The notes below the pieces were generated by a model, which was given only the letters and a program-made list of their open reading frames with translations, searched no databases and had not been told where the DNA came from. 39,670 bases of DNA from a virus: positions 1-39,670 of the IMG/VR virus record IMGVR_UViG_3300032182_000282. One strand, 5' to 3'. Below, piece by piece: positions 203 through 16,600 of this stretch. The stretch's first letter is position 1. Each line of letters opens with the position of its first letter. The position numbers were made by a program, and so were the translations under genes.

Positions 203-996
203 AAGAATTCAAGTCCTTCATTAAATCCAAAGTCATCAGCAGCTGTTACTAATGCGTCATCATTTACATCGACGACACCATCAGAGTTAATGTCTGTAGT
301 TGCTTTGGGTGTATATGTTCTAGTAATAGTTCTACGGTTGACTGCACGATCACCAATGGTCTCGTGAATAATTGCCTTCCTGATGATGTCAGAAGTGCTA
401 TATGGACCGTAGAGGTAAGACTTCATTGTGAAGTTCAGAGTATATGCAATGTATCTACGATCATTGAAACTCTCATCCCACTCATCTTCACCTGTAATAC
501 TATTGAGAACAATAGCAACATCACGTTTCTCATTCATGTCAGGGATCATGTTGAGAGTGATACTGAAAGATGGTTGGAAGTATGGTAAAATTTGTTCTAC
601 GATTTGTAGTGCATCGTCCTGAGACTTTGCAATAACTCCCAATTCAAAACTAATATTATATGGTACAGGAACATACTGAACCTTTACTTCATTACCATTA
701 TCAGCGATAATAGTTTTATACTTCTGAATTGGCGATGTCTTTCTAGAAGCATCATATTCAATACCAGTCATCTCAAAGTAGATACGTGGTAATGTGATTG
801 CTACTTTAGATTGTGAGACATCTGTCAAACGGACAAGAAACTTCTGCTTAGGTCCATAGTTCAATGGAACCTTAGTTTCTTCTAAAACAGAACCGTCGTT
901 AGGATCAGTGCTCTTCAATGTAATATTATTGAAGAGTGTACCAAACGCAATAATGTTCTTGCGAACAATTTGATTATAAAAATGTGATCCTAACAT
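199..996 (-). CDS. 15: Tail sheath stabiliser and completion protein gp15
   Basis: The product has 265 residues, close to T4 gp15 (272). T4 gp15 forms the hexamer that caps the tail tube and sheath and joins the tail to the neck. The clearest signature is QIVEQILPYFQPSF at about residues 131-144, nearly the same as the T4 sequence in that place. The N terminus, FYNQIVRKNIIAFGTLFNNI, also follows the T4 start (FYN...R...GDLFSNI). The C-terminal 40 residues are less conserved and end with an acidic stretch (DINSDGVVDVNDDALV) that resembles a calcium-loop or dockerin-like DxNxDG pattern, though I would not assign binding from that alone. The gene starts with ATG at 996, overlapping the gp14 stop by one base (TGATG). 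It overlaps gp16 by four bases at its end. Confidence 0.93.
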   Translation of the reverse strand: MLGSHFYNQIVRKNIIAFGTLFNNITLKSTDPNDGSVLEETKVPLNYGPKQKFLVRLTDVSQSKVAITLPRIYFEMTGIEYDASRKTSPIQKYKTIIADNGNEVKVQYVPVPYNISFELGVIAKSQDDALQIVEQILPYFQPSFSITLNMIPDMNEKRDVAIVLNSITGEDEWDESFNDRRYIAYTLNFTMKSYLYGPYSTSDIIRKAIIHETIGDRAVNRRTITRTYTPKATTDINSDGVVDVNDDALVTAADDFGFNEGLEFL

Positions 997-2120
997 CAGA
1001 TACTACCTGTAAAATTACCTGCTTCACCAAATGGGTTGCCTTCTGTCCAATCAATAATGTCATCCGCAGCATCCTCAATCTCACGATTTTGATCGTAAGC
1101 TGCTGCGCTGGTATTATTTAGAGTGTCAAATGTCTCAGGAGACCACTTAGCACCAGAAGTTAGACCAGTAATTACTTCAGCAGTAGTGAAGGTTCCTGTT
1201 CTATTGATGACTTCGAGAGCTCTGGTTGCACTATCCCAGGACTTGACTTCTGCTCTGTTATCTTTGGGGGAGTAGTCAATTGTGACAGTTGGTGCAGAAC
1301 TATAGCCACTCCCACCAGATGTAACGAGGATGCCATTAACAATACCAGTAGAACTGACTGTAGCAGTCGCAGTAGCACCACTTCCGTCTCCTGTAATGGT
1401 TACTGTTGGTGGTGTGGCAACCTTGTAATGCGAACCACCATCTGTAATAGTTATACTAGTAACAGCATCACCTGTAATACTTGCTGTAGCTTTAGCAAGG
1501 AACTCATCACCAACAACCTCCTCTCCTACAGTGAAGTCTCCACTACCACCAGGATCCATGAAGAGTTTGATAGCATTGTCAAACGTCTGTTCGATAACAT
1601 CAATCTCCTCAACTCCAGTGTCAAAGTCATCACTGCCAACCTCATAGATTTCAGCAGTGATAGAATAGAATTGGATCTTACCAAACTGGAAGAATGGTTG
1701 TTCTTTTTCTACAAACTTAATCTCGTAGATATCTTTAGTCAATGGGAAGTACAATAGATCTCCCTCATTGGGTCTGCTGTCAGTTGTAAGAGTAGGATTG
1801 TATTGCGCTACTACTTCATCCCACCTTCGTGTAGACACACGAAAAATTACCTCGTCTGTAATACGAAGTCCAAACTTACTGACAAATTCTGAGTTGTCTC
1901 CAAATCCAGTTACGTTTTGGAGAAGCATTTCTACTTGAAACTGTTCCTGATACTTTGAGTATCTTACTTCATCAAGGGTGTTATCTTGTAGAATAGTTCT
2001 TGGTAAGTAGTAGATGTCAGATCCAAATAGTTTGATCTGCTCATCCACAAGATCTTGATACAGACCTTGTTCGCCTGTATCACCTTGATAATACGTTGGA
2101 AAATAGGGACTGGTAGGCAT
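996..2120 (-). CDS. 14: Neck protein gp14 with an inserted GGSGY module
   Basis: The product has 374 residues and sits between gp13 and gp15, as in T4. gp14 is part of the head-to-tail neck ring that receives gp13 and the completed tail. The N-terminal 170 residues (YFPTYYQGDTGEQGLYQDLV, LFGSDIYYLPR, GLRITDEVIFRVSTRRWDE) are the recognisable gp14 core. T4 gp14 has 256 residues; the excess here comes largely from about residues 195-285. That part carries two glycine/tyrosine motifs (TDGGSHY near 227 and TSGGSGY near 270), each followed by a PTVTI strand and a Gly/Ala-rich stretch. The same pattern recurs in the giant virion proteins of this window. The gene starts one base after the gp13 stop (TAA G ATG). 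Confidence 0.9.
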   Translation of the reverse strand: MPTSPYFPTYYQGDTGEQGLYQDLVDEQIKLFGSDIYYLPRTILQDNTLDEVRYSKYQEQFQVEMLLQNVTGFGDNSEFVSKFGLRITDEVIFRVSTRRWDEVVAQYNPTLTTDSRPNEGDLLYFPLTKDIYEIKFVEKEQPFFQFGKIQFYSITAEIYEVGSDDFDTGVEEIDVIEQTFDNAIKLFMDPGGSGDFTVGEEVVGDEFLAKATASITGDAVTSITITDGGSHYKVATPPTVTITGDGSGATATATVSSTGIVNGILVTSGGSGYSSAPTVTIDYSPKDNRAEVKSWDSATRALEVINRTGTFTTAEVITGLTSGAKWSPETFDTLNNTSAAAYDQNREIEDAADDIIDWTEGNPFGEAGNFTGSI

Positions 2121-2121
2121 C

Positions 2122-2922
2122 TTATCCGATCATATCCATTGGTGGGATTGCATACTTACTGAGAACTTCGCTTTCGATTTTCTCAATTTCTGCTAGTGCG
2201 TCTGTGTATAACTCTCTTCCGTTGAGGGTGATACCACCAGGCAACTGAACATTGTTATACTTGATCAGGTTCATACCCCACTGCTTTTTCATTAAAGCAG
2301 TAGCATATCTCTTGACAAACATATCATTATACATTTCAGTAGCATCTTCAGGATCAATCAATCTGTGAGCTTCAATAACAAGATACATTCCTTCTTTTAG
2401 GAACTTCTTATTGATGTCAAGATACAAACGATCACGACGCATTGTGTATCTAAACTGCTGGAATGATCCGTTGTTGAGGACCATATCTAGAGTTTCTAGA
2501 TACTGCTTGTTCATATAATAGTTGAGGATATCAAGTGATCCGAATGCATACAAATCATTCAAGAACAACTGATACTCAACACCAAAAAGATTAGAACGGA
2601 TTGAGTTGCTGACTAGTCCAAAGACTTTGGTAATACCTACAACATGATCTGGAATAGGAATATAGTTTGTTGCCTCTTCCCAGTTTGTTGTACCACTAGA
2701 TGTAGTTACTTCACCATCAAATCTAGTCTTATCGTCAGCAGTGATTTCATGCCTTAGATATGACCTCTCCATACCATTGTAGCAGTTCTCTTGAAAGAAC
2801 TGAATGGTATCGTCAATAACGTTGTTTACCTGTTCGTCGTCAATGTTTACTTGCAGGACAGGCTCACCCAACTGTCTCTTACAATATGTTATGAGATCAG
2901 CTCTTGAGTTTGGAGATGCCAT
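2122..2922 (-). CDS. 13: Neck protein gp13
   Basis: The product has 266 residues from ATG at 2922. The frame is open a little further upstream, but the first possible start there is a TTG at 2931 without support. gp13 joins the filled head to the tail through the neck. Family features are the N-terminal helix (SRADLITYCKRQLGEPVLQV), the next helix (VNNVIDDTIQFFQENCYNG) and a mixed C-terminal region with KRYATALMKKQWGMNL. This fits cyanophage gp13 in length and position. There is no good Shine-Dalgarno sequence in the 12 bases before the ATG; the only candidate (AAGAAGGGA) lies in the 3' arm of the hairpin at 2933-2967. That arrangement could couple gp13 translation to hairpin opening. gp14 follows immediately. 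Confidence 0.92.
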   Translation of the reverse strand: MASPNSRADLITYCKRQLGEPVLQVNIDDEQVNNVIDDTIQFFQENCYNGMERSYLRHEITADDKTRFDGEVTTSSGTTNWEEATNYIPIPDHVVGITKVFGLVSNSIRSNLFGVEYQLFLNDLYAFGSLDILNYYMNKQYLETLDMVLNNGSFQQFRYTMRRDRLYLDINKKFLKEGMYLVIEAHRLIDPEDATEMYNDMFVKRYATALMKKQWGMNLIKYNNVQLPGGITLNGRELYTDALAEIEKIESEVLSKYAIPPMDMIG

Positions 2923-2932
2923 TACACACAAA

Positions 2933-3172: not shown

Positions 3173-3868
3173 TCAAAATTTAGATTGGTCGAATGCGTAT
3201 TCTGCTCTCTCACCATCTTGTAGAACATAATGGAAGAAAGCCTGATGCCAGTACGTATCGTCTGGTATCTTCAACAATTTATTTATTCTTTGTGAAAGTT
3301 TCTTGTTTTTATATTTGGACGGTAAACCCTCCCTCCAGTGTGGAACTTCACAACCTTTGTAAATTATACCATCTCCTGGTTCTGTAGTCATTCTTTTTAT
3401 TCCAGATACACTGTTGTAAAAAGAATAAAATGGATACTCCCCATAGTCTGGAAGATTACTACTGATGGTTACAGAAACAGAAATCTCACATGATGGTCTG
3501 TCAATGTGCTGTGGTAGATCTTGTCCTACGAAATAAAATCTATCATAGTAATAAGTTGGATATAACTTCCTGCCAATTACTGCTTCTGTTTTTTTCTTAA
3601 TTTCGTAGTGAAGTTCTTTATAATCTGGATGGTTATATCTACAGCAAGATCCTTCTACTTGATCTTCTACTTCTTCATATGTGTACTTATCTTCACTCCC
3701 AAAGTAGTTTTTTACACCTCTCCAATTAGGAACAGGAACAAACCACTTCTTCGGATCAATCATATCAGAATACCAGTAGGCACCATCGTGTTCTAGTTCT
3801 TCTAGTTTTGTTGGTGCAGTTCCTCTACTTTTCTCTGCCCAGTATGCTGTTTCGATATCAATTTCCAT
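3173..3868 (-). CDS. 2OG-Fe(II) oxygenase-like protein (HxD...H)
   Basis: The product has 231 residues from the ATG at 3868-3866. This ATG overlaps the stop of the preceding gene (TAATG) and has GAGGTGG at 3880-3874, so it is preferred over the longer frame starting at 3895. The likely iron ligands are H121 and D123 (LPQHIDRPSCEISVSV) and H177 (EVPHWRE), each in the strand context expected of the double-stranded beta-helix fold. A third histidine-rich strand (WHQAFFHYVL) follows near 207-216. No clear 2-oxoglutarate-binding Arg-x-Ser is visible, so cofactor use is less certain than for the preceding gene. The substrate is unknown. It is the last of four coupled oxygenase-type genes and is followed at once by the small coiled-coil gene. 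Confidence 0.72.
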   Translation of the reverse strand: MEIDIETAYWAEKSRGTAPTKLEELEHDGAYWYSDMIDPKKWFVPVPNWRGVKNYFGSEDKYTYEEVEDQVEGSCCRYNHPDYKELHYEIKKKTEAVIGRKLYPTYYYDRFYFVGQDLPQHIDRPSCEISVSVTISSNLPDYGEYPFYSFYNSVSGIKRMTTEPGDGIIYKGCEVPHWREGLPSKYKNKKLSQRINKLLKIPDDTYWHQAFFHYVLQDGERAEYAFDQSKF

Positions 3869-4488
3869 TACTTCCACCTCGGACCAACTACCCATCCCAC
3901 GAGAGATTTACGTACACCTTTTGTCACTTTGAGAACTCTATGTTGTGTACGAGAATCGAAAACAATCATCGTTCCTCTTTTCCTTGGAGCGAAATAGTTT
4001 CTACCATTCTCATCTAGTAACTGAAGATTACCACCTTCATAATCATCAGGATTAGATAGTTGCAATACAAATGAAAGTTTTCTTACCTGTTCATGAGACA
4101 CTGCAACTTGATCGTTAATGTATTGATCTCCAGAAGTATCTTGAGATTGTGGTTTATACATGGTCAAGATACCTGCATCATTATGCCAGTTATAAAACTG
4201 ACCCTCTTCATATCTAGTGTATTGGATACTGTTTTGATCAATAGCTTTCAGATCATATAGAAAGTTATTGTCATTTGCTAGGGTGATATAGTTCCAAAGA
4301 AATCCACTGATCCAGTGTCCTGTAGGAACCCAAGCGTTTTGTGAATTTCTAATTTGTTTATTTACGTCACCACCAGATAGACCAGAATCCTCAAAAGATG
4401 CATCGTAGTTTTCTACTAGATCTTTTTCAAGAGTGGTACAAATTTCTTCGGGCAACCCTGTATAGTACCAGACAGACTGAAATGCCAT
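3868..4488 (-). CDS. Prolyl-4-hydroxylase / PKHD-type 2OG-Fe(II) dioxygenase
   Basis: The 206-residue product has the full catalytic set of the 2OG-FeII_Oxy_3 type. H102 and D104 lie in YEEGQFYNWHNDAG, H183 in FDSRTQHRVLKV and R193-x-S195 in GVRKSLVGWV. A conserved strand (VRKLSFVLQLSNPDDYEGGN) lies between them. Such enzymes couple decarboxylation of 2-oxoglutarate to hydroxylation of a substrate, often a proline or another side chain in a protein. The closest resemblance I see is to phage and bacterial PKHD-type hydroxylases (PiuC-like), which are about this size or slightly larger. There is no signal peptide, so it should act in the host cytoplasm. It starts one base after the preceding stop. 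The nearby glycine-rich adhesin with GPP-like triplets is a possible substrate, as inference only. Confidence 0.9.
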   Translation of the reverse strand: MAFQSVWYYTGLPEEICTTLEKDLVENYDASFEDSGLSGGDVNKQIRNSQNAWVPTGHWISGFLWNYITLANDNNFLYDLKAIDQNSIQYTRYEEGQFYNWHNDAGILTMYKPQSQDTSGDQYINDQVAVSHEQVRKLSFVLQLSNPDDYEGGNLQLLDENGRNYFAPRKRGTMIVFDSRTQHRVLKVTKGVRKSLVGWVVGPRWK

Positions 4489-4489
4489 A

Positions 4490-5038
4490 TTAATATTTGG
4501 GAATTAAGTTAAACGAAAAAACTATTCTTTCAAGATCACTAGTATTTGGATCTGTATAATGAAGTATTGATGAAGGGAAGAACAATAGCGTTCCACTCTT
4601 TACTTCTGGGTAGTAGTAAATTGGTTCTCCATTTATAAAATTATTGAATGGAGAGACGAATGTAACTGCTTTGTGTTGCTCTTCATCGAATTGAATATAG
4701 AGAACTGCACTATATCCTATAGCACCATGGTTATGAACACCATGATACATTCCTTTCTTTGCACTCTCAAACCAATATCCATTAGTTTGTAAATGCATCT
4801 CTACAGTATTGGCAAAGTCTTCTAGTTCATCTGTAAAATAAGATGCAACTTCTTCCCAATAGTCATGATCATATAAACTATGATAATCACTTAATACATG
4901 ATCATCTTTTTCTTCCGCAACAACATAGGCATCTGACCTTTTCTTGTGTAGTGCCAGAAGTTTCTCTTGCTTTTCTTCCCAGTTTTTTACTTGATACTTA
5001 AAAAGTGGTATAGCAAAAAGAGTTTCAATTTCACTCAT
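4490..5038 (-). CDS. 2OG-Fe(II) oxygenase-like protein of the HxH type (copy 2)
   Basis: The product has 182 residues. It shares its layout with the preceding gene: an N-terminal helical part, then H102-x-H104 (GMYHGVHNHGAIGYSAVLYI), a hydrophobic strand with VTFVSPFNN, then SGTLLFFPSSILHYTDP with H160, and R171 in the last strand (RIVFSFNLIPKY). This pattern matches the phage-common 2OG-FeII_Oxy_5 type as I know it. The HxH instead of the usual HxD/E is a feature of that group. The ATG overlaps the preceding gene's stop in ATGAGTGA, so translation is likely coupled. Substrate unknown. Sequence identity to its neighbour looks low outside the motifs, so an old duplication or separate acquisition are both possible. 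Confidence 0.82.
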   Translation of the reverse strand: MSEIETLFAIPLFKYQVKNWEEKQEKLLALHKKRSDAYVVAEEKDDHVLSDYHSLYDHDYWEEVASYFTDELEDFANTVEMHLQTNGYWFESAKKGMYHGVHNHGAIGYSAVLYIQFDEEQHKAVTFVSPFNNFINGEPIYYYPEVKSGTLLFFPSSILHYTDPNTSDLERIVFSFNLIPKY

Positions 5039-5609
5039 AATCAGATGGGTCTGTAGATAGACTTACATCGGTATTGAAAGAAAGGATTGTTTTCCTTCTA
5101 TCATCTTTTATTTCTGGAGCACAGTGAATAATAAATGACGGGAAAGTTAAAATGTCTCCTTCCTCAACATCGTCGATGTCAAAGGTGCCATCATTATTTA
5201 GTGGGTTGACAAAAACGGTTTTTGGAGATCCTTCTGGATATTCTAAGTAATAGACAGAAGACCACTGGCACTGGGTATGAACATGCCACTCATGCGAAGC
5301 ATTTTTCTCATACTGCTGAAACCACATGTTGATCATCTTGACAGCTTGATATCCTCTATCAAAAAACATTTGTGCATGTTCTTTGTAGATAGCTTCTTGA
5401 ATATAATTCAGATATTCTCTTGGTTCTTCTCTAGAAACATTCCAATCACATTTGGAGATGTTCGTTTTCAGATACCCATGATCATCAACTGCTTGATATG
5501 AACCAGCATTCATTTGATCAATCAACTGGAGAGTTTTTTCTCTCATTTCATCATGAAGCCCGAACCTCATTTTGAGGATCGGGCATGGAATATTATAAAT
5601 TTGGTGCAT
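5031..5609 (-). CDS. 2OG-Fe(II) oxygenase-like protein of the HxH type (copy 1)
   Basis: The 192-residue product has the same fold signature as the next gene: H109-x-H111 in SHEWHVHTQCQWSSVYYLEY, then VFVNPLNND, then EGDILTFPSFIIHCAPE with H162, and R171/R172 before ILSFNTDV. These are the expected metal and 2-oxoglutarate contacts of the 2OG-FeII_Oxy_5 type. The N-terminal 90 residues are mostly helical and probably form the usual support for the beta core. It is the first gene of the oxygenase cluster. The gap from the adhesin stop is only 27 bases and carries a sigma70-like -10 element. Its Shine-Dalgarno sequence is poor: AAGGA lies about 15 bases from the ATG. No substrate can be read from the sequence. 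Confidence 0.83.
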   Translation of the reverse strand: MHQIYNIPCPILKMRFGLHDEMREKTLQLIDQMNAGSYQAVDDHGYLKTNISKCDWNVSREEPREYLNYIQEAIYKEHAQMFFDRGYQAVKMINMWFQQYEKNASHEWHVHTQCQWSSVYYLEYPEGSPKTVFVNPLNNDGTFDIDDVEEGDILTFPSFIIHCAPEIKDDRRKTILSFNTDVSLSTDPSDYE

Positions 5610-5630
5610 GATGTATGTTTGTTTGTCCTT

Positions 5631-5659
5631 ATTATACTATGGGTTCCACTCAATCACAA
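5631..5659 (-). promoter_or_regulatory. Possible sigma70-type promoter for the oxygenase cluster
   Basis: On the minus strand TTGTGA (5659-5654) and TATAAT (5636-5631) are separated by exactly 17 bases. The -10 is a perfect consensus and the -35 matches 4 of 6. The -35 and spacer lie in the end of the adhesin gene. The expected start near 5624 would leave a leader of only about 15 bases without a Shine-Dalgarno sequence, which argues against strong use. Confidence 0.45.
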
Positions 5660-6617
5660 CTCTACCAGATCTTTGAGCACCACCACGATCACTTCTTCTG
5701 GGTCCAGGTCCAACAGCGTTGTTTCCTGGTGCTTGTGATAACGATGGACTTGTAATGTAACTTGGGTTGGTGTGTCCTGAACCACCGCCACCACCAAATC
5801 CACCAGAATCACCGCCGCCTTCACCGCCGCCGTAACGACCACCGCCGCCACCGCCCGATCCACGGTCTCCAGGGTTTCTAGCACCATATCCACCTTGATA
5901 AATGTTATTACCAAGAGAGCTTCGACCACCTGGGTTTCCTGGTGGTCCAGTTCTTCCCTGACCACCTCTTGTTCCAGATCCAGGATTTCCTCTTCTTCTG
6001 GGAGCAGCTCCGCCAGCACCTACGCCGTTTTGTGTTCCGCCACCACCACCTCGTGGTCTTCCAGGTTGACCGTTATTACCACCGCCACCATATCCAGGGC
6101 GACCAGCACCACCGCCGCCACCACCTGCAAGAATACGAATATTACCTCTTGCAGTAGGACCAACGTAGATACCAGAAGCAGCACCACCGCCAGCACCAGT
6201 TCTACCACCACCTGGGTTTCCTCTTCCTCCAGTAAATACTCTGTATGATGTTCCGCCAACAAATGTCATGTTGCCTTGAGCAAAACCACCAGCGCCACCA
6301 TTACTATCTCCTCCACCAGCACCCCAAACATAAACTGTAGCTGGGGTATCAGCATCAAAAGTTAAGGTCCAGTTTCTTCCTGGTTCATTTGTGCTACTAG
6401 GATGTTGGAGGACTAAAGGACTAACAGCTAAGTCTCCACTACCAGTAGATCCACCACTATAACTGAAAGTAGCAGGATCCTGAGCAGTATAAGTTTCTCT
6501 CCAAGTTCCTGAGACATTATTGTAAACATTCTGTGCTTGTCTCCAAGTTCCAGTAACGTTATTATAAATCTCAGCGATTTCTCTCCAAGTTCCAGATACG
6601 TTATTAAAGATACCCAT
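5637..6617 (-). CDS. Glycine-rich tail adhesin
   Basis: The product has 326 residues in three parts. Residues 3-44 are three 14-residue tandem repeats (IFNNVSGTWREIAE, IYNNVTGTWRQAQN, VYNNVSGTWRETYT). Residues 45-90 form a short beta-rich piece with WTLTFDADTPATVYVWGAGG. From there to the end is a very glycine-rich domain with ILAGGGGGGAGRPG, collagen-like GRTGPPGNPGG and a closing beta strand (GRVVIEWNP). The pattern fits the Gly_rich_2-type domain and recalls the tip adhesins of T-even phages, where glycine runs form packed polyglycine-II helices that present receptor-binding loops. Receptor binding here is inferred. It follows a tail-assembly-chaperone-like gene and a short fibre gene, the usual setting for such adhesins. 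Its DNA is locally much richer in G+C because of GGN codons. Confidence 0.75.
   Translation of the reverse strand: MGIFNNVSGTWREIAEIYNNVTGTWRQAQNVYNNVSGTWRETYTAQDPATFSYSGGSTGSGDLAVSPLVLQHPSSTNEPGRNWTLTFDADTPATVYVWGAGGGDSNGGAGGFAQGNMTFVGGTSYRVFTGGRGNPGGGRTGAGGGAASGIYVGPTARGNIRILAGGGGGGAGRPGYGGGGNNGQPGRPRGGGGGTQNGVGAGGAAPRRRGNPGSGTRGGQGRTGPPGNPGGRSSLGNNIYQGGYGARNPGDRGSGGGGGGRYGGGEGGGDSGGFGGGGGSGHTNPSYITSPSLSQAPGNNAVGPGPRRSDRGGAQRSGRVVIEWNP
6486..6611 (-). repeat. Three 42-base tandem repeats (NNVSGTWR)
   Basis: Three consecutive 42-base units encode a 14-residue motif with the core YNNVSGTWR. At the DNA level the phrase CTCCAAGTTCC on the plus strand recurs at the same place in each unit. They form the N terminus of the glycine-rich protein and probably its attachment or spacer segment. 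Confidence 0.85.
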
Positions 6618-6625
6618 AGGTCAAC

Positions 6626-7339
6626 TCAAGCGTAATAATTTTCTTCTGCTGGTTTTGTAGGCCAAATAGCATCATCTTCTAGACGTGTGTTTGGTCTATC
6701 AATTTCACGAATGTTTGTGACAGTAGCAGGGAAGTCACGAAGTGCTTGACGATATGTCTTTACTTCTTCAGAGATTGTTCTTCCACTTTCTAGACCTCTG
6801 AGCATGATAACATCAGTCTCAGCAAGTCTTCTATTTCTGTGCTCTCTAAGAGATTCCCAGATGATTTCTTCTTTCTCTGCTACATCTTCTTCTGGCAAAG
6901 AAACTACAGAGAAAGTTTTTGTGATGGTTTTGAGTTCTTCATTTCTAACCCATCTATCTTCTTCATCGACATAGAAAGTTTTATCAAAATCTAATACATC
7001 TTCATTTGGATAGTTTCCTTCGATGATGTCCCAGACTTCGTATTTAACATTAACAGTTTTTCCGTTTCCAGCAACTGCCCACTCTGAGATAGGACGACGA
7101 TTAATCTCATGGGTATCATCGTTCTTTTCTTCTGGGAAGTTATCGACGACAAGCATCCATCCTTCATTTTTATAAAGGTACTCGTCATCTACGAGAGCCT
7201 GGTTTTGATATGTCCAACCAGGATGCTTTCTCTCTTTGCTTTCTGGGGTTAGATATGACTTTGCTTTTTGCCTTGATTGATACTCTTCGGTAGGAGAAGG
7301 GAGAGTATCTGGCATCCAAAAATCTTGTTCTTCTGACAT
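6626..7339 (-). CDS. Tail-assembly-chaperone-like protein
   Basis: The 237-residue product has an acidic N terminus rich in Trp, Tyr and Pro (EEQDFWMPDTLPSPTEEY, then HPGWTYQNQALVDDEYLY). The C-terminal part has LREHRNRRLAETDVIMLRGL at about 165-184, followed by VKTYRQALRDFPATV at about 198-212. The R-N-x-x-L-x-x-TD plus YRQALRD pattern is typical of the Phage_tail_APC family (tail assembly chaperones beside fibre genes). A role in folding or attaching the neighbouring fibre or adhesin is therefore likely. Some related proteins stay in the virion as tail-fibre components, so that alternative remains. The ATG at 7339 has AGAGG four bases upstream. The next gene follows after eight bases. Confidence 0.65.
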   Translation of the reverse strand: MSEEQDFWMPDTLPSPTEEYQSRQKAKSYLTPESKERKHPGWTYQNQALVDDEYLYKNEGWMLVVDNFPEEKNDDTHEINRRPISEWAVAGNGKTVNVKYEVWDIIEGNYPNEDVLDFDKTFYVDEEDRWVRNEELKTITKTFSVVSLPEEDVAEKEEIIWESLREHRNRRLAETDVIMLRGLESGRTISEEVKTYRQALRDFPATVTNIREIDRPNTRLEDDAIWPTKPAEENYYA

Positions 7340-7352
7340 TTTTCCTCTTTAA

Positions 7353-7769
7353 TCAGTATTTGTACCAGATATCACCGTTGCTTCCACCAGATGGGTTGCC
7401 AGTAGAAACTGTCTTAGCACCCCATCCGTTAGAATAAGCACCTGATGTTGGGTTAACAGTAATGTTTGCAGAACCATCAAACGATACACCGTTAATGTTT
7501 CTAGCAGTGGCAAGTCTGGTAGCACTATCAACATCCAAAGTATTGATATTCAACCATGTTGGGGTAGTACCGCCCGACAAAACTTGTGCGCTTCCACCAG
7601 CAGTTAACTTTGCAGTTGTTCCTGATGCAGACTGATATAAAATCTGTCCAGCAGAACCACCTGTGATATTTGTTGCAGCGGTAACACCCGATCCAACAAA
7701 TGAACCGTTAGAAACGTATGTTACCCCTGCAGTAGTCTGCAAAGTATCACACTTTAGAATACTTGCCAT
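7353..7769 (-). CDS. Short tail-fibre-like protein
   Basis: The 138-residue product resembles the distal segments of phage fibres. MASILKCDTLQTTAGVTYVS is a typical opening of cyanophage fibre proteins. It is followed by GGSAGQILYQSASGTTAKLT, GGSAQVLSGGTTPTWLN, LATARNINGVSFDGSANITV and a C-terminal GSNGDIWYKY, all recurrent in trimeric beta-structured fibres. A small fibre or fibre-tip subunit is the best guess; the receptor is unknown. A perfect TATAAATA lies at 7799-7792, 22 bases upstream of the ATG, so this gene probably starts its own late transcript that continues into the chaperone-like and adhesin genes. Confidence 0.75.
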   Translation of the reverse strand: MASILKCDTLQTTAGVTYVSNGSFVGSGVTAATNITGGSAGQILYQSASGTTAKLTAGGSAQVLSGGTTPTWLNINTLDVDSATRLATARNINGVSFDGSANITVNPTSGAYSNGWGAKTVSTGNPSGGSNGDIWYKY

Positions 7770-7804: not shown

Positions 7805-10800
7805 TTAGATGATAGACCATGCACCGCCATCTAGAATAGTGACGATGTTGTTTCCAGTAATTTCAATTGGTCCAGCAGACATACAGTTTGTGTTTGCAGG
7901 AACAGTGACGTTTTCTGCAATTGTATTTCTGTTTGCCTTCATGACGCCATAGGTATCAATATACTGTCTGTCGCCCATCACTCTCATAGCGGTGTCGTTA
8001 TTGTTATTGGATGCACTTGCAGTAGTGGTTCCGAAAGAAGCACCAATGAAGTTAGAAGATCCATTAACATGTAGAGTGTAATCAGGATCTGCCTGATTAA
8101 TACCAACACTAGAAATCCTGTAAATATTTCCGCCAGTTGTACTTTCTGTCCATCTAGAAGTAACGAATGGATCTCCATTTTGATATAGATTACCATTCAT
8201 GTTGATGTTACCTTCAACATTCAACTGCATGTCAACACTGTTGACAGTAGTAGTTGTGGTGTTGATACCAACTCTATTTGTAGAACCGATAATTGTAATC
8301 GCAGGTGTAGAGTTCCAATCAACAGCACCGTTTGAAGTTGATGCTTGAATAGTGAATAGATCGTCTGCTACGAGTTGGTTACCAATTCTAAAGTTTTTAA
8401 AGGAACTGGAACCACGGAAGACAACTGGAGCGCCGCTGTTGTCAGCAGCATCATCAATTGTAATACCATCCTTAGTATAGACACTACCATTAACTTCAAG
8501 AGTATAAGTTGGTTGACGGTTGATACCAATACCAATATTTCTGGATGCAAGAATGTCACCAGTAACTTTAAATGCTAGTTCTGTTTCGGTGCCTTCAACG
8601 TTGAATACTTCGCCATAGTCACTGTTAGGAGTTGCACCATCAGAGTGATTATATCTGATAGTACCTTGCTGAGCATAATTTCCACTCTGATGATCACTAA
8701 ATCTAATTCTTGCTCCAGTAGAAGGAGCATTAGCAGCAGTGCGGACTACGATGCCACCATCACCTCTAACTTCCAAAGGAGCCATTGGTGCGCTGCCAGT
8801 ATTAATACCGAGACGCTTAGTAGATACATCGACAAATATTACTTCAGTTTGACCGTCAGCTCCAACCGAAAGATCGTCACTGACTGATAAAGTAGACTGC
8901 AGTGTGGTAGTACCACCAACTGTTAAAGATGCACTAGTGCCACTTAGGATCAAAGATCCTGTCATAGTGTCGCCAGCTTTCAGTACGTTATTAGATGCAG
9001 AACCATTCAATGCTGCGGTGATTGTTCCTGCAGAGAAGTTACCAACAGCGTCACGCTTAACAGCAGTATTAACAACGTTAGCAGATTGGAATGTAATGTT
9101 TCCAGCGTTCCAAACTTGGTTGCTGTTAATTGTAAAACCATCAGCGTTGATAACTTGTACGTTCAGAGTACCAGAACCATCAGTTCCGTTACCACCAGCT
9201 GCTACAAGTGCAACGTTATAGTTTGCTGCTACAGCAGAACTGTTGAAATATAGACCAGGAGAAGATGCAACTCCATCTGTTCTGCCAAGTCTTAAGTTAC
9301 CTGTTCCGCTGTCACTTTCTAGTTTAGCAACATCAATTGTATTTCCAGGTTCAATACTAAAGTCTTGGAATGGTTCACGTACTACAGAAGTACCAATTGT
9401 AATTGCACCAATGAAGTTACCAGTAGTCAGACGACCGATAAGGATGGTGTAGTCTGCAAAACTGTCTGCTTCATCATTGATGATGACGTTATCAATTGTA
9501 AACTGTCCAGTTCCCTGAGTTTGAGCATTGTAAAGGTTGACAGTATTACCAGGAGTAAATGGCGATGCGTTTAGAACTCTACCGCTGATGTAGATTTGAT
9601 ATCTAGGATCTCCATTGAATGATTTAATTGTGATATCATCACGGATAGATGTTGCACTAATAAATCTAGGAAGTCTCTCATCAGATAGAGTTCCGTAGTT
9701 TACGTTTAGTGCATTTTGATACCAAACTCCTTGTTTATTGTCAAGTCTGTCAGCGTCAAGTCCAGAACCAACACCATCATTACCAGAACTCCAAATCTTA
9801 TACCAAGATCCAAATGTGGTTACTCCAGTTCCAGAACCACGAATCCACATGTTGTCATTATCAGTAAATGCCAACTGTCTAACACCACCGTATGTGGTGT
9901 CAAAACCTTGACCGCCATTTCTAATAGTTAGTGCTAGGTTTTTAGATCCACCATCACTCAATCCATTTGCAGCATTATTGACAGTGTTTGCAATAATACC
10001 TTCAACAAAGTTGTTTGGTGATGGGTTTGAAGTTGGGTTGTTAGTACCAGTAATCAGACGAATAGTATTCGCAGAAGAACCAGAAATACTGATGTTGTAT
10101 GTACCAGCAAGTCTATCTGGATTAACTGTACCAGAGTTAAGGTTTGTTGCATTCAGGTAGAAAGAACCTTGTGCGCCATCTAGCAAGTCAGCGTCTAGAC
10201 CACTATCAGCACCAGTTTTCAGTGTGACAGAACCGTTACCTTCTGTACCAATATCGAATTGGGATTTCTTAAATCTGGAAACACCAATTGTACCGAACAG
10301 GTCAGCAGAAACTGTTAGGTCTGTTACTCTAGCAACGTCAATAGAAACGTTTGCAAATTGTTTGTTGACAGTAGAGAGTTTTGCTGCAAGAACCATGCTA
10401 GATCCTGCACCAATATCAGTTGGAGCAGAAATGACATTGAAGTCAGCTGTGTATCCAGTACCACCATCAGTAACAGTGACATCAGTAATAGTATTACCAG
10501 AAACAGTAATGTTTGCTCTGAGACCAGTACCAGTTCCACCAAGTAGTTGTTGGTCAAAATACTGACCGTCTGTAAAACCAACACCACCATTTGCAATTAC
10601 AATACTGTCTACATATCCACCTTGAGTATAAGTAGATTCAAACTGAACAGGTGATGGACCTCTATCAAATTCAATGATAGTTCCTGCGGGAATTGTAGAA
10701 GTTAGTGTACTACTGAGAGAAATTGTTGTAGTTCCGCCAGATGTTAATACTCCATCGATGTTGGTATTTGGTTGAATACCAGTTACATTATTAACAACCT

Positions 10801-13800
10801 CATGTCCAATAAGAACATCAGAGTTGGTTGCAAACCTCATTTCGTTTGAACCAGAGGTTGCAGAAACGGTTAACTTCGCGAAGTATCTTTCTTCGCTACT
10901 CTTGAGAGATTGTAGTGCGAGTGCCCAGTTCTGGTCTCCACGTAGGAAGGTGAACGAGTTTGCCGTTCCACCAGATGCAATAACATTTGCTGGAATTGGA
11001 CCACCAATTAGAGTAGAACCATCGACTGTACTGGAAGTTAGCGATACCCAGTTGTTAGCATCAAACGATGAAGTATTGAGAACTCTGGTTAGAGTTACAG
11101 TCACTGATGGAATATCACTACTCTCAATAGTGTCGTTCTGATCAATTGCGACATTGTTGACAATATCACCGTATAGTCTGCTTTCAATTAGACCAACACC
11201 ACTAGCTTGTGTTCCAGATCCTGGTGGAGCAGAGAATGTGATTGTTGGTGCGGTGGTGTATCCTTTACCACCCTTATAACCATTAAATTCAATAATAGTT
11301 ACGGTAACAACTTCTCCATTAGCAATGGTACAATTTGCAGCTGCCTGTACAGCACCCAATCCAGGGTTACCGCCAGTAATTTGTACTTGGGGTGGTTGTG
11401 TATATCCAGAACCACCGTCAGTGATATTGATTTGGTGTAGAATACCCTGTCTATATTCTGTAGCTTGAATACGACCAGTTGTAATACTTCCTTCAAAGAT
11501 ATCACCAATGGTGAACTGAAGTGTAGGATCTACATTAAATGCCAAGAACAGACTATCAAGATCATTGTTTAGAATGAATGATCTTGTAACGTCCTGTTGA
11601 ATGGCAATGTCGCCAGCAAGTGCGCCTTCTAATTGCAGTCTTTCATTCTGGTCTGCAACAGTATAGACTTCAAAAGGTCTGAGTGCTGGGATCTGGTCAA
11701 TAGAAATCTTACCACTATCAGTAAGTTCAACCAATGCTCTAGGAACAGCGTTCGTGGAATATGGTTTGTTGATGTAAGGTCCAAGGTTGTTAGTGATATA
11801 ATCCTTAACTGCCTTCTGAGTAGGTAGTTTAGAATCAGTGGAGTTAGCGCCACCCAGTGTGTTGGATGCGTCGAAACCAGTAACAACAACGTCACCGCCC
11901 TTCAGTTTCAAGAATTCAACTTCAGAGATAGTAACCGTACCAGTAAAGGTGATAGCACCAGTTCTGTTTTCAATTCTTGCGAATGTACCAACCTTGAAGT
12001 CGCCAAGTTCGTCAGTACCAGAGACATAGACACGACCATAATTTTCAGATACTTGCTCGTTTGCCTCAACCTTTGTACCACCGTTCTCAGGCAGTGCTAG
12101 GTAGTTAGTACCAGAACCTGCAAATTCCCAGGTGTGGGAGGAGGAGTTAACAATAGATGGTCTGTGTAGTCTGATTGTTTGTCCTAGAAGATTTGGAGCG
12201 CCTACAGCAGCCTGATCACTATCTCTAATTACACTCAGTGGATCTCCAGTACCATTGTCGATTGTTAGTGTTGCAGAGAAAGGAGGACCAACAGTAACTC
12301 CAGATACAGTATCAATGAAGAATTCAATATCTTCATCAACGTTGGAGTGTCCGTCAAACTTACAGATATAGTGTTCTAGTGGTTCTCTTCCTAGACCATC
12401 AACGGTAAGAATAGTTCTACCTGTTGGTGTTGCAGAAGCATTTACGACAGTACCAACGTCAAAGGTGTATGCTTCCTCTCTATATCCAGTACCTCTTAGT
12501 GCAAACTGACCGAAGTTTGTAGCAGAGTTGGTGATAGATGCATAACCACCAGATTCGCAAAGAACACCATCAGCACAGAAGATAACGAAGACCGAAACCA
12601 ACTGGGTGTAACCATCTTCAATAACCTTATAACCTGTACCACCAAAGGAGACAATGGTGAATGCAGATGCAACCATCGACTTACCCTGATTGGGGAAGGT
12701 TGCAGAACCATCTAGTTCTAGACCAGGGAATGGGCAGTTGGGTTGCTTGACCTTAGAACCATCAATCAGAGCACCGCCACCACCTAAGAAGGAGATAACA
12801 GATGCGTTCTGTGTATATGGTGATGCTTCAATGATTGGATAATCATCATAGTCACCACGAATTGCCATGCGCTGATTGTTAGCGTCATAGATGTAAGAGT
12901 TTGCATACTCTGTAATCTTAGAGGTATCGAATAAAGTACCGTAGGTCTTGACGGTGCTTCCAGGTTCGATTGCAGTTCCACTAAGAGGATTATCTGCATA
13001 TTCTAGAATTCCATCTAGAATACCCATCGAAGTTGTGATAGATGCTTCTACGTTTGCACATAGAGGATTTCCTGCGGGATCTGCTAGAATAGTAGCATCA
13101 ACAAACTGTGGAATAGGAGAAGATGTAGTTACTGCAGTTCCTGCGCCATCTTTCCATCCACGCATTGCTGCAATAGCAAGGTCTCTTACCTCTGTGTATG
13201 CATATCTTGTTTCAGCTAACTGAGATGCATCGATACCAGAAAGAGCAGTGCCACTATAATATGCTTCAGCATTAGTTACAATGCCAGCATTACCTCCAAG
13301 TACAAGGTCTCTGATTAGACCACCTAGGATATAGTTAATATCTCTACGGCACTTTCTCTGATGGATATCCGTCAGTCCTAGAGAAGGATACTGTGCTTCA
13401 GTATTGATTAGCGCCTGATCTGCAATTAGATCTCTGTTTCTAGCGATTAGATATGCAGCATCTAGATATGTGCCAGAAGCATCGTTTGCAATTACATCTA
13501 CCCAAAGGTATGATAATGTATCAATAGCAGATCTAACATCAGAACAAGATGTACCATCACCAGCAGATCCATCTGCATTGAGGTTAGAAGTAGTTGTAAT
13601 TACGCTATCGTCAAAGTATCTGGGAACTGAAGAATATACAGGAGCATATACGGGATCTGCTGGGAAACCATTGCCAGTTCTCCAGTTGTTGATAGCATAT
13701 AGTGCTAGTTCTCTAGCATATTCAATTGCACGAACTGTTTGAATAATCTCATTTTCAATGTATGCAATCTTTGCTCCAATGATATACTTTTGAGCAGCTT

Positions 13801-16600
13801 CAATTATGTTATGATTAGTTCCAAATTCCAAGTCTCTAATCAGAGCATTGAGGAAGTGAGTTACATCTTGTCTGCACTGTTCATCACCATTTGAACCAGT
13901 GTTAGTTACAGTTGGAGAACTGTAAGAAGGATAGATTTTTTGTCCAGCATCGCATTCAATTAGCAAGTCTGCAAGTTGAACAGTATCATCCTCACTAAGT
14001 GATAGTTCAACATCAGTTGTAACTGTAGCAACACCTGTTACATCCGTATCATAAACAAATCCAGTGACATTAGCAGTAGTGCCACCAAATGTTACTGTAC
14101 CACCACTGACCCAAGTATTTTCATGATCTAGAGTTCCTAAGAAAATGTCAAAAGAAGTACCAGAAACATTGTATACTGAATAATAATCTCTCTTAAACTG
14201 ATCGTTGATTTTACTTACAACTTCATCAGCAATAAACTCTCTGTTATTACGGAGGAAAGTGCAAGCATCTTGATATCTTCTTGCCTCTGGAGTTGAGATT
14301 GGGAATTTGTTTGGAGAGTTAAGTAGCGATAGTGTAATTACTTTCGAGTATGACTTAACAGTCGCAAACTGCCCTGGATCCAGATTTGCATCGTTAATTG
14401 CAGGAGCTTTCTTTGGAATGACAAATCTTCTAGAACGACCATCAGCGTCTTCTAGAACTTTGTAAATTCTCTGTTTCCCCATCAAGAATGATAGGTCTGG
14501 ATTGCTGGTTGGTAAATTAGAAAGTTCAATTTCTTGACCTTCTCTAAATTCGTGAATGTTGTCTCTACCAACCAGAGCATTCGTGTAGAAAACAATACCG
14601 CCTAGGTCTTCTGCATTACCATATAGTTCACTTTGGAAACCACCAGTAGCAATAGAAGCATCACCTTGTAGCGAAAAGTCAATTCTAACAATAGGTAGAG
14701 TTGATGTAACATCTTCGTCAATAGATACAACTTCACCTTCTGCTCTAATTGATTTGAGTGATGTGGTATCAAACTGATTTTCTGTAATGCTAGCTTCAAA
14801 AACATTGATAGTAGCGGATGAAATGCTATCCCAAGATGGAGATCCTAAGATAGGAACAAATGTCACATCCCAGGAAGTTGGAGCATTCTCATCATCAACT
14901 GCTGCTACTTCATAGTATCCTGCAGTAAATTGTGCATCTACAGTATCATCTAGATACACATATGTGCCAGGAAGAAGATCTGCAGTTGGGTTTGTAGTAA
15001 AACGGAGAATATTATTGCCGTTTGTGCTAGACTGTCCAGATAAGGAATTAATCTGATTTCCTTGAGTACCAGATACTAGATATCTGAATTGCTCACCTTC
15101 AACAAAAGAACCAGATGTTAGTTGAACGTCAAGTTTACCGTTGACATATGCGTTTGCACCAGATGTCTCGTCAAATTCTACAAGAGTAACTTTTGCTCTA
15201 GCACCAGTGTTGACACCAATAACGTCAAGTCCAGCGATAAGAGCTGACAGACCAGTGTTCTGCTGGAATATGACACGGAATTGATCTGGTCCAAAGATCT
15301 GATGACCGATTGGGAAATCAACACCAAAGTCTCCATTGACTTCATTATCAATGATGACTTTTTGCTTATCGTCAAAGACCATAGCAAAGTCCCAAGTGGA
15401 GACAGGATCTCCAAGGGAATCAATCTTATCTCTATAAGTTACACCAATGACATAGTTCTTATCACCAAACTTAAAGATGTGCTTTCCTTGATTGTTTGGT
15501 CTGATAATTACCAGACGAAGGTTGTCACCAACAACCGAGCAATCGGGTGGTAGAGAAATGGGGTTATCTTCTACATAGTCACCACCAGAAACAATAATCG
15601 TTTCTTTAACGCCAGGTGTTGACCATGCTAGTTGTGCCGCTTTCTTAATTGTTCTAACTGGGTTTACAGCAGAACGACCGTCGTTTAGGTCAGAACCAAT
15701 CTGCTGTGAAACGTAAATACGACCACCAACGTCATTCGTTGCTAGATTGAGGACGTATTCTGTAGTTGCAATCTTGTCTGATCTATCACCAAGTAGTGGT
15801 GTGATAGATCTTGGGAATACTCCAGCGTCACCTGTTGTGTTATAACCAAATGCAGCCTGATCGTCTACTCTGAAACCAATATGCTTAAATTGAACTTCTC
15901 CGTTTAGTTCAATACCATCTAGGTGTTCTGGTGCCTCGGATCCAGTTTGTCCAGCATTCAATGCTTGATAAACGTTTGCACCAAACCAACGATAACTATC
16001 TTTCTGTAGAATAACTCCAGGTGCCCATTGGATGCCTGTGTTATTAATAAAGGTCTTTAAGTTTGGTCCTCTAAAATTAGTGTCTGGAGTAACAAAGTTA
16101 TCAATATCCAGGTTTAGAATTCTCGCCGTATCAGAAATGATAGACGTGGATGTTCTAATAGCACCGTTGATGTCAAGTTCAAAATCAACAGTATCTAGAG
16201 TTGATGTTGCAGCTGCACCAACTCCATTACCACCAGTGATTGTAACTTGTGGTGCCGTGGTATAACCACTACCAGGATTATTAACAGCGATGTTAATAAC
16301 TCTTCCATTGAAGATAAAAGCGGAAGCTAGTGCTTGTACACCATTTGGTGGTGGATCAATAGTTACAGAAGGAGCACTGGTATATCCAGAACCACCCTCT
16401 GTGATTGTAATTCTGTCAATTCTTTCACCTGTTCTATTAATACCAACACGAGGTAACTGTGTGTTAGCATCAAGTTGAGTTCTCAGGATCTCTCGTTCAA
16501 GAGCACCCGAACCACCTCTAATAGTTAATTCATTATCACCGATGAATTGAGGACTACCTCCTCTAATTTTCTCCTTATCGGAATTAATGTTAAAACTCAT
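7805..16600 (-). CDS. Giant fibre-like virion protein (2931 residues)
   Basis: Parts can be placed approximately. Residues 50-150 hold two GGSGY modules (EGGSGYTSAPSVTI, NPGSGYTTAPQVTI). Residues 290-390 look like a pectin-lyase-type beta helix (GRIYVSQQIGSDLNDGRSA). Residues 770-1155 hold two helical modules with CRQDVTHFLNALIRDLEFG and CRRDINYILGGLIRDLVLGG. Residues 1250-1385 form a second beta-helix-like segment (VISFLGGGGALIDGSKVKQP). GGSGY-type modules return around 1710-2080. Residues 2130-2300 have fibre motifs (SGLDADLLDGAQGSFY, GLDADRLDNKQGVWY). From about 2590 to 2845 there are four GIN/GIG...L.V.G repeats typical of endosialidase-type fibres, without a following peptidase S74 domain. 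It ends MSAGPIEITGNNIVTILDGG. It probably forms a long side or tail fibre; the receptor and any enzyme activity are unknown. The ATG at 16600 has GGAG about 14 bases upstream. Confidence 0.8.
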   Translation of the reverse strand: MSFNINSDKEKIRGGSPQFIGDNELTIRGGSGALEREILRTQLDANTQLPRVGINRTGERIDRITITEGGSGYTSAPSVTIDPPPNGVQALASAFIFNGRVINIAVNNPGSGYTTAPQVTITGGNGVGAAATSTLDTVDFELDINGAIRTSTSIISDTARILNLDIDNFVTPDTNFRGPNLKTFINNTGIQWAPGVILQKDSYRWFGANVYQALNAGQTGSEAPEHLDGIELNGEVQFKHIGFRVDDQAAFGYNTTGDAGVFPRSITPLLGDRSDKIATTEYVLNLATNDVGGRIYVSQQIGSDLNDGRSAVNPVRTIKKAAQLAWSTPGVKETIIVSGGDYVEDNPISLPPDCSVVGDNLRLVIIRPNNQGKHIFKFGDKNYVIGVTYRDKIDSLGDPVSTWDFAMVFDDKQKVIIDNEVNGDFGVDFPIGHQIFGPDQFRVIFQQNTGLSALIAGLDVIGVNTGARAKVTLVEFDETSGANAYVNGKLDVQLTSGSFVEGEQFRYLVSGTQGNQINSLSGQSSTNGNNILRFTTNPTADLLPGTYVYLDDTVDAQFTAGYYEVAAVDDENAPTSWDVTFVPILGSPSWDSISSATINVFEASITENQFDTTSLKSIRAEGEVVSIDEDVTSTLPIVRIDFSLQGDASIATGGFQSELYGNAEDLGGIVFYTNALVGRDNIHEFREGQEIELSNLPTSNPDLSFLMGKQRIYKVLEDADGRSRRFVIPKKAPAINDANLDPGQFATVKSYSKVITLSLLNSPNKFPISTPEARRYQDACTFLRNNREFIADEVVSKINDQFKRDYYSVYNVSGTSFDIFLGTLDHENTWVSGGTVTFGGTTANVTGFVYDTDVTGVATVTTDVELSLSEDDTVQLADLLIECDAGQKIYPSYSSPTVTNTGSNGDEQCRQDVTHFLNALIRDLEFGTNHNIIEAAQKYIIGAKIAYIENEIIQTVRAIEYARELALYAINNWRTGNGFPADPVYAPVYSSVPRYFDDSVITTTSNLNADGSAGDGTSCSDVRSAIDTLSYLWVDVIANDASGTYLDAAYLIARNRDLIADQALINTEAQYPSLGLTDIHQRKCRRDINYILGGLIRDLVLGGNAGIVTNAEAYYSGTALSGIDASQLAETRYAYTEVRDLAIAAMRGWKDGAGTAVTTSSPIPQFVDATILADPAGNPLCANVEASITTSMGILDGILEYADNPLSGTAIEPGSTVKTYGTLFDTSKITEYANSYIYDANNQRMAIRGDYDDYPIIEASPYTQNASVISFLGGGGALIDGSKVKQPNCPFPGLELDGSATFPNQGKSMVASAFTIVSFGGTGYKVIEDGYTQLVSVFVIFCADGVLCESGGYASITNSATNFGQFALRGTGYREEAYTFDVGTVVNASATPTGRTILTVDGLGREPLEHYICKFDGHSNVDEDIEFFIDTVSGVTVGPPFSATLTIDNGTGDPLSVIRDSDQAAVGAPNLLGQTIRLHRPSIVNSSSHTWEFAGSGTNYLALPENGGTKVEANEQVSENYGRVYVSGTDELGDFKVGTFARIENRTGAITFTGTVTISEVEFLKLKGGDVVVTGFDASNTLGGANSTDSKLPTQKAVKDYITNNLGPYINKPYSTNAVPRALVELTDSGKISIDQIPALRPFEVYTVADQNERLQLEGALAGDIAIQQDVTRSFILNNDLDSLFLAFNVDPTLQFTIGDIFEGSITTGRIQATEYRQGILHQINITDGGSGYTQPPQVQITGGNPGLGAVQAAANCTIANGEVVTVTIIEFNGYKGGKGYTTAPTITFSAPPGSGTQASGVGLIESRLYGDIVNNVAIDQNDTIESSDIPSVTVTLTRVLNTSSFDANNWVSLTSSTVDGSTLIGGPIPANVIASGGTANSFTFLRGDQNWALALQSLKSSEERYFAKLTVSATSGSNEMRFATNSDVLIGHEVVNNVTGIQPNTNIDGVLTSGGTTTISLSSTLTSTIPAGTIIEFDRGPSPVQFESTYTQGGYVDSIVIANGGVGFTDGQYFDQQLLGGTGTGLRANITVSGNTITDVTVTDGGTGYTADFNVISAPTDIGAGSSMVLAAKLSTVNKQFANVSIDVARVTDLTVSADLFGTIGVSRFKKSQFDIGTEGNGSVTLKTGADSGLDADLLDGAQGSFYLNATNLNSGTVNPDRLAGTYNISISGSSANTIRLITGTNNPTSNPSPNNFVEGIIANTVNNAANGLSDGGSKNLALTIRNGGQGFDTTYGGVRQLAFTDNDNMWIRGSGTGVTTFGSWYKIWSSGNDGVGSGLDADRLDNKQGVWYQNALNVNYGTLSDERLPRFISATSIRDDITIKSFNGDPRYQIYISGRVLNASPFTPGNTVNLYNAQTQGTGQFTIDNVIINDEADSFADYTILIGRLTTGNFIGAITIGTSVVREPFQDFSIEPGNTIDVAKLESDSGTGNLRLGRTDGVASSPGLYFNSSAVAANYNVALVAAGGNGTDGSGTLNVQVINADGFTINSNQVWNAGNITFQSANVVNTAVKRDAVGNFSAGTITAALNGSASNNVLKAGDTMTGSLILSGTSASLTVGGTTTLQSTLSVSDDLSVGADGQTEVIFVDVSTKRLGINTGSAPMAPLEVRGDGGIVVRTAANAPSTGARIRFSDHQSGNYAQQGTIRYNHSDGATPNSDYGEVFNVEGTETELAFKVTGDILASRNIGIGINRQPTYTLEVNGSVYTKDGITIDDAADNSGAPVVFRGSSSFKNFRIGNQLVADDLFTIQASTSNGAVDWNSTPAITIIGSTNRVGINTTTTTVNSVDMQLNVEGNINMNGNLYQNGDPFVTSRWTESTTGGNIYRISSVGINQADPDYTLHVNGSSNFIGASFGTTTASASNNNNDTAMRVMGDRQYIDTYGVMKANRNTIAENVTVPANTNCMSAGPIEITGNNIVTILDGGAWSII
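13140..13472 (-). repeat. Helical module copy 2 in the 2931-residue protein
   Basis: This about 110-residue unit starts LDAAYLIARNRDLIADQ, continues with KCRRDINYILGGLIRDLVLG and GNAGIVTNAEAYY, and ends VRDLAIAAMRGW. The same order occurs in the preceding unit and twice in the giant protein encoded at 31621-39670. Function unknown. Confidence 0.75.
13670..14290 (-). repeat. Helical module copy 1, split by an insertion
   Basis: It starts YQDACTFLRNNREFIADEVV, is interrupted by a beta-rich insert of about 80 residues, and resumes with QCRQDVTHFLNALIRDLEFG and later ARELALYAINNW. The insert is the feature that separates it from the other three copies. Confidence 0.65.

Follow-up and report, generated by a model that had tools for sequence, protein, structure and literature searches.

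The DNA analysed here is the IMG/VR virus record IMGVR_UViG_3300032182_000282, a stretch of 39,670 nucleotides (39.7 kb; hereafter the window) that belongs to a T4-like marine phage of the Kyanoviridae, cyanophage type, and includes the neck genes gp13 and gp14 with the fibre region beside them. Four oxygenase genes lie at the gp13 end of its tail-fibre (host-recognition) module, behind the gene for a glycine-rich putative adhesin. On the minus strand, the order of transcription is giant fibre genes, a small fibre-like protein, a fibre assembly chaperone (PF16778), the glycine-rich protein, two enzymes of the PF13759 family, two further oxygenases that we call P and F, a conserved protein of 67 residues, and gp13 (Table 1). 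In pelagimyophages and cyanomyophages, the island that separates the structural genes from gp14 has been described as a host recognition cluster (PMC7029224). The original prediction, made from the letters alone, had proposed that the four enzymes might hydroxylate the adhesin or the fibres before assembly; the genes and positions it gave agree with the list of open reading frames. Gaps of -8, +1 and -28 nt between consecutive oxygenase genes, and of -4 nt between F and the next gene, show that these genes are tightly packed. The adhesin gene is separated from the first of them by 27 nt and is not overlapped.

P had been described as a prolyl-4-hydroxylase-like (P4H-like) enzyme with a full HxD...H...RxS motif, and the match to PF13640 and the conserved residues bear this out. 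The Fe(II) triad (H102, D104 and H183) and the two 2-oxoglutarate (2OG)-binding residues after the distal histidine (R193 and S195) are invariant in the 31 aligned sequences. When the predicted structure of P (predicted local distance difference test, pLDDT, 86.5) was compared with solved structures using Foldseek, its double-stranded β-helix (DSBH) fold was nearest to prolyl hydroxylases. The best match was the Pseudomonas putida prolyl hydroxylase PPHD (PDB 4iw3; E 2.6e-12, template modelling (TM) score 0.70/0.72, 21% identity); PPHD and the Dictyostelium PHD took ranks 1-7, followed by PiuC, PHD2, the PBCV-1 enzyme vCPH and an algal P4H. Residues and fold together suggest that P is a 2OG-Fe(II)-dependent, prolyl hydroxylase-like enzyme with a predicted activity on peptidyl proline. 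Judged by the model, it is nearer to bacterial PPHD and to PHD2 than to collagen P4H.

F, the further HxD...H protein of the original prediction, keeps H130, D132 and H186 in all 42 aligned sequences. It has no match of any kind in Pfam. Its predicted structure (pLDDT 91.4) has the DSBH fold of 2OG oxygenases; PPHD is again the top match (E 4e-7, TM score 0.47-0.51/0.59-0.60), at a moderate level lower than that of P, with AlkB-type proteins close behind. Relatives of P and F are annotated in marine cyanomyoviruses as T4-GC_412 ('2OG-Fe(II) oxygenase') and T4-GC_615 ('ferrochelatase'), and are adjacent in S-SM2, Bellamy, S-SSM5, P-RSM4, S-CAM8 and others; in the literature searched we found no function for them and no link to an adhesin. 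The 'ferrochelatase' label, which relatives of F carry in GenBank cyanophage records, is apparently wrong, because the predicted fold is that of a 2OG oxygenase: the best 50 structure matches all have this fold and none is a ferrochelatase. P and F may well act together, since they are adjacent and since a single 362-residue protein of ACG-2014f (L176:9839-10927) combines an N-terminal part that matches F with a C-terminal part that weakly matches P. The gene for this protein lies near ribonucleotide reductase (nrd) genes, away from fibres, which leaves room for a different function of fused forms.

We analysed the surroundings of P and F in loci from IMG/VR and GenBank. The two families were delimited by hidden Markov model bit-score cut-offs of 140 and 200, respectively, set at gaps in the scores; this gave 170 P-F pairs, and dereplication with a minimum of 4 kb of upstream sequence left 75. 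Proteins were called glycine-rich when an 80-residue window held at least 35% Gly (oxygenases left out), a measure with a bimodal distribution. A glycine-rich gene lies within 4 kb upstream of 63 of the 75 pairs (84%), compared with 16 of 103 other oxygenases (16%) in loci without P or F (p=1e-20) and 12.6% of ordinary genes. Downstream of P-F pairs the count is 22/58. The first upstream gene that is not an oxygenase is glycine-rich in 29 loci, against 15.5 ± 3.3 expected from gene-order shuffles (0/5000).

The glycine-rich proteins next to P-F pairs also differ in composition. Their glycine-rich segments contain 7.0% Pro (n=222), compared with 2.8% in loci without the pair (n=48, p=1e-19). 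Proline shows the largest rise of any residue; the levels of Gly, Ala, Ser, Thr, Lys, Arg, Val and Leu are alike in both groups, and the contrast is stable to dereplication and to window settings. When each protein from a locus without P-F was paired with its best homologue from a P-F locus, the latter had more proline in 39 of 48 cases (p=2.8e-7); among unique homologue pairs (n=20), proline rises from 3.1 to 6.2% with P-F (p=5e-5). The same contrast is seen within gp13 clade A (5 vs 14, p=0.0014) and clade B (p=0.012). Proline is not raised in other proteins of the loci (3.3 vs 3.7%), and the non-glycine part of the same adhesins shows no significant difference. In the glycine-rich segments it falls with distance from P (from 8.0 to 6.0%), and in loci with several glycine-rich genes the one nearest to P has more of it (p=0.02). 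With two later samples included, 65% of the 222 adhesins from P-F loci exceed 6% Pro, compared with 0 of 61 others. Two other candidate causes were rejected: genome GC content does not correlate with the proline difference, and loci with only F-like and PF13759-type genes have 2.5% Pro, which sets aside distant F homologues as the covarying factor.

On a gp13-region tree, drawn without branch support values, P-F occurs at about five separate positions (the window, L108, L121, L109/L158 and L095). The glycine-rich genes visible at these positions have 5.6-7.6% Pro, and interspersed adhesins without P-F have 1.3-4.6%. Synechococcus phage S-H9-1, whose gp13 is 94% identical to that of the window, has neither the enzymes nor a glycine-rich gene at the corresponding place. 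An apparent exception, the adhesin of L412/L413 with 9.1% Pro and no P-F in its locus, was accounted for by the longer record of L413, which has both genes just past the end of the locus. Among adhesins of intermediate proline content from the helicase-anchored sample described below, three (L341, L334 and L351) have a distant P homologue elsewhere in the whole record; records with a P homologue average 4.5% adhesin Pro compared with 3.3% (p=0.049). A GC30-anchored sample comprised 14 loci and bore mainly on the L412/L413 case. Covariation of adhesin type with oxygenase content, which the original prediction had named as a check, is supported for P and F, and no link is seen for the PF13759 enzymes.

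The adhesin of the window, placed directly before the oxygenases as predicted, has 326 residues and 30% Gly overall; its glycine-rich segment has 36% Gly and 7.6% Pro. Its N-terminal 49 residues have weak matches to PHROGs of unknown function. A search among GenBank phages returned no homologue, and in IMG/VR it retrieved two loci only. The string GRTGPPGNPGG, behind the description 'partly collagen-like', is present. The label is weak, as the longest run with Gly at every third position has 6 triplets, a length attained in 29% of composition-matched shuffles. A regular (Gly-X-Y)n collagen was rejected on this ground (p=0.29).

Table 1. Features of the oxygenase cluster and its surroundings in the window.
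Feature	Coordinates	Strand	Evidence
Glycine-rich, proline-rich putative receptor-binding protein/adhesin, proposed substrate	5637..6617	-	Open reading frame; composition of glycine-rich segment
P: prolyl-hydroxylase-like 2OG oxygenase (T4-GC_412 family), proposed adhesin prolyl hydroxylase	3868..4488	-	PF13640 8.9e-16; invariant residues; predicted structure
F: second DSBH oxygenase (T4-GC_615), usual partner of P	3173..3895	-	PHROG 2954; invariant residues; predicted structure
2OG-Fe(II)-oxygenase-like, PF13759, HxH...H	5031..5609	-	Pfam 8.8e-10; PHROG 81; alignment
2OG-Fe(II)-oxygenase-like, PF13759, HxH...H	4490..5038	-	Pfam 1.5e-13; PHROG 81; alignment
Tail fibre assembly chaperone (Phage_tail_APC, PF16778)	6626..7339	-	Pfam 5.4e-12; PHROG 4912
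Small tail-fibre-like protein	7353..7769	-	PHROG tail fibre matches
Giant fibre-like protein, 2931 residues, host-recognition module	7805..16600	-	Open reading frame; no Pfam match; position corresponds to S-H9-1 structural protein
Neck protein gp13, anchor for comparisons	2122..2931	-	PHROG 211 9e-45; 94% identical to S-H9-1 gp13
Neck protein gp14 (T4_neck-protein)	996..2120	-	PF11649 3.8e-20

The specific linkage, the proline covariation and the prolyl-hydroxylase fold are most simply accounted for if the neighbouring glycine-rich receptor-binding protein is hydroxylated on its prolines by P together with F, the pair forming a dedicated phage prolyl-hydroxylase module; we give this a probability of about 0.6. 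P would bind Fe(II) through H102, D104 and H183 and 2OG through R193 and S195, and would hydroxylate prolines in proline-containing glycine-rich segments (of polyglycine-II or Gly_rich_2 type) before the adhesin is mounted on the fibre. F would act with P, either as a second hydroxylase or as a partner. As to the benefit, hydroxyproline would stiffen the packed glycine-rich helices or change the receptor-facing surface.

Of the proposal that the whole cluster acts on the adhesin, the part concerning P and F is thus supported, and the part concerning the PF13759 enzymes is not: oxygenases other than P and F, with 16/103, are close to the 12.6% baseline, so that this half of the cluster shows the independence from glycine-rich adhesins that the original prediction had named as speaking against it. 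The two were correctly recognised as HxH-type enzymes. Their PF13759 scores (51.4 and 39.3 bits) exceed the Pfam cut-off of 27, and in each of the 9 aligned PF13759 sequences His takes the place of Asp/Glu as the second metal ligand. This HxH...H pattern, common to both window proteins and all aligned relatives, is unusual for 2OG oxygenases.

Several observations weigh against a dedicated P-F module. Because P or F was itself the means of sampling for most P-F loci, lineage is only partly controlled. In dereplicated gp13-anchored loci, chosen for neither gene, a glycine-rich gene accompanies P-F in 5 of 6 cases compared with 19 of 46 without the pair (p=0.08), the same trend in weak form. For about 16% of P-F pairs no glycine-rich gene is present within 4 kb; that of S-SM2, with 4.3% Pro, is about 5 kb upstream, with ordinary fibre genes in between. 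Of the loci with enough upstream sequence in a helicase-anchored sample, only two carried P-F, a number too small to decide either way; their adhesins have 4.7 and 5.9% Pro (difference not significant), and adhesins without P-F in that sample reach 5-5.7%. No P homologue was found in the (incomplete) records of five intermediate cases (L194, L381, L411, L420 and L213). His, Tyr and Cys are lower in glycine-rich segments of P-F loci than in those without the pair, so part of the contrast may reflect adhesin subtype.

Carried to its end, the last point would mean that a proline-rich class of glycine-rich domain is inherited with P-F for non-catalytic reasons, as the shifts in His, Tyr and Cys and the helicase-anchored adhesins with 5-5.7% Pro might indicate. 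The contrast nevertheless holds between best homologues and inside both gp13 clades, and P-F recurs at roughly five tree positions with different adhesins; we consider inheritance by subtype distinctly improbable. Somewhat less so, though still unlikely, is a P that hydroxylates a host protein, either EF-Tu, as PPHD does, or a ribosomal protein, as OGFOD1 does, and that travels with the adhesin since both sit in an exchanged host-recognition island. The nearest structure of P, PPHD, was solved with EF-Tu, and gene exchange is concentrated in the island (PMC7029224). Other oxygenases in similar islands are, however, unlinked to glycine-rich genes (16/103), and hitchhiking does not account for a rise of proline that is seen in the adhesins and not in other proteins of the loci.

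A reading in which the whole cluster acts on glycans or lipids of the host envelope, and so excludes competing phages, would parallel what is thought of glycosyltransferases in such islands (PMC7029224) and would suit the weak PhyH similarity of one PF13759 enzyme of the window. It does not predict the proline covariation, and the fold neighbours of P are protein prolyl hydroxylases, which makes it very improbable for the cluster as a whole; the two PF13759 enzymes may still act on the envelope. A role in DNA repair has been tentatively proposed for cyanophage 2OG oxygenases (PMC2984593, PMC9146016), other members of which adjoin uvsX/uvsY (PMC2984593), as they also do in ACG-2014f, and AlkB is among the structure matches of F. 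Since the cassette of the window sits among fibre genes and P best matches prolyl hydroxylases, repair or modification of nucleic acids is hardly credible here.

If P and F do hydroxylate the adhesin, some abundant ocean phages would have enzymatically hydroxylated receptor-binding proteins, adding to host recognition a layer beyond sequence, and collagen-like stabilisation chemistry would be at work in phages of bacteria. Of the genes that are still unexplained in marine cyanophages, those for 2OG oxygenases are among the most frequent; for the conserved P-F pair there is now a definite candidate substrate and residue, in phages whose hosts are in culture. A Baltic Sea study that reported a viral P4HA noted that collagen can form part of tail fibres and called the viral use of the enzyme cryptic (PMC9301287). 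The general idea of a phage P4H acting on fibres is already in print; the specific pairing of P-F with an adhesin was not found in the open-access full-text literature that we searched.

Genes for other tailoring enzymes were seen in comparable places. In five loci (L105:5276-6769, L203:4219-5778, L104:3037-4617, L121:6856-8430 and L171:7840-9396), the corresponding position next to fibre and oxygenase genes holds a flavin (tryptophan) halogenase gene; two of these genes were confirmed as PF04820. A fibre protein could be what cyanophage halogenases naturally act on. A carbamoyltransferase gene (PF02543/PF16861) lies on the opposite strand between the glycine-rich gene and P in L006 (6825-8435), L109, L158, L168, L169 and L170. 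Sulfotransferase-like genes lie near glycine-rich adhesins and oxygenases in L121 (3607-4383, PF13469 match) and L150 (4840-5622). Tentatively, and as a picture that we find rather doubtful in its full breadth, marine T4-like phages may exchange a two-enzyme prolyl-hydroxylation module together with the proline-rich, polyglycine-type receptor-binding proteins that it matures, as one of several kinds of tailoring enzyme (hydroxylases, flavin halogenases, carbamoyltransferases and sulfotransferases) beside fibre genes that chemically diversify these proteins.

A parallel case is found in ACG-2014f, where a long protein with true collagen-like (Gly-X-Y)n repeats (L423:13505-18993) is followed a few genes downstream by a glycosyltransferase and an enzyme matching the P4H profile, in which GVK replaces the usual GxRxS. 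The T2-type gp38 adhesins of S16 and PP01, with their polyglycine-II sandwich (PMC12892980), are small glycine-rich receptor-binding proteins of T4-like phages and in this respect resemble the putative adhesin of the window. On the enzyme side, P is closest in sequence to PKHD-type hydroxylases (PiuC/YbiX) when compared with NCBIfam and PDB, yet it scores 62.6 bits against their family model, far below the cut-off of 143, and PPHD is structurally closer. The PBCV-1 viral collagen prolyl hydroxylase vCPH (PDB 5c5t) is also encoded by a virus and has a fold like that of P (TM score 0.62/0.70). Its source, however, is a virus that infects eukaryotic algae, PPHD is the closer match to P, and the putative substrate of P is glycine-rich in composition without being a regular collagen. 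PPHD itself (PDB 4iw3/4j25) shares the Fe/2OG ligand pattern of P and is the top structure match of both P and F. Its substrate is the translation factor EF-Tu, whereas for P the genomic data favour a structural protein of the phage; and, unlike PPHD, P comes with a partner, F.

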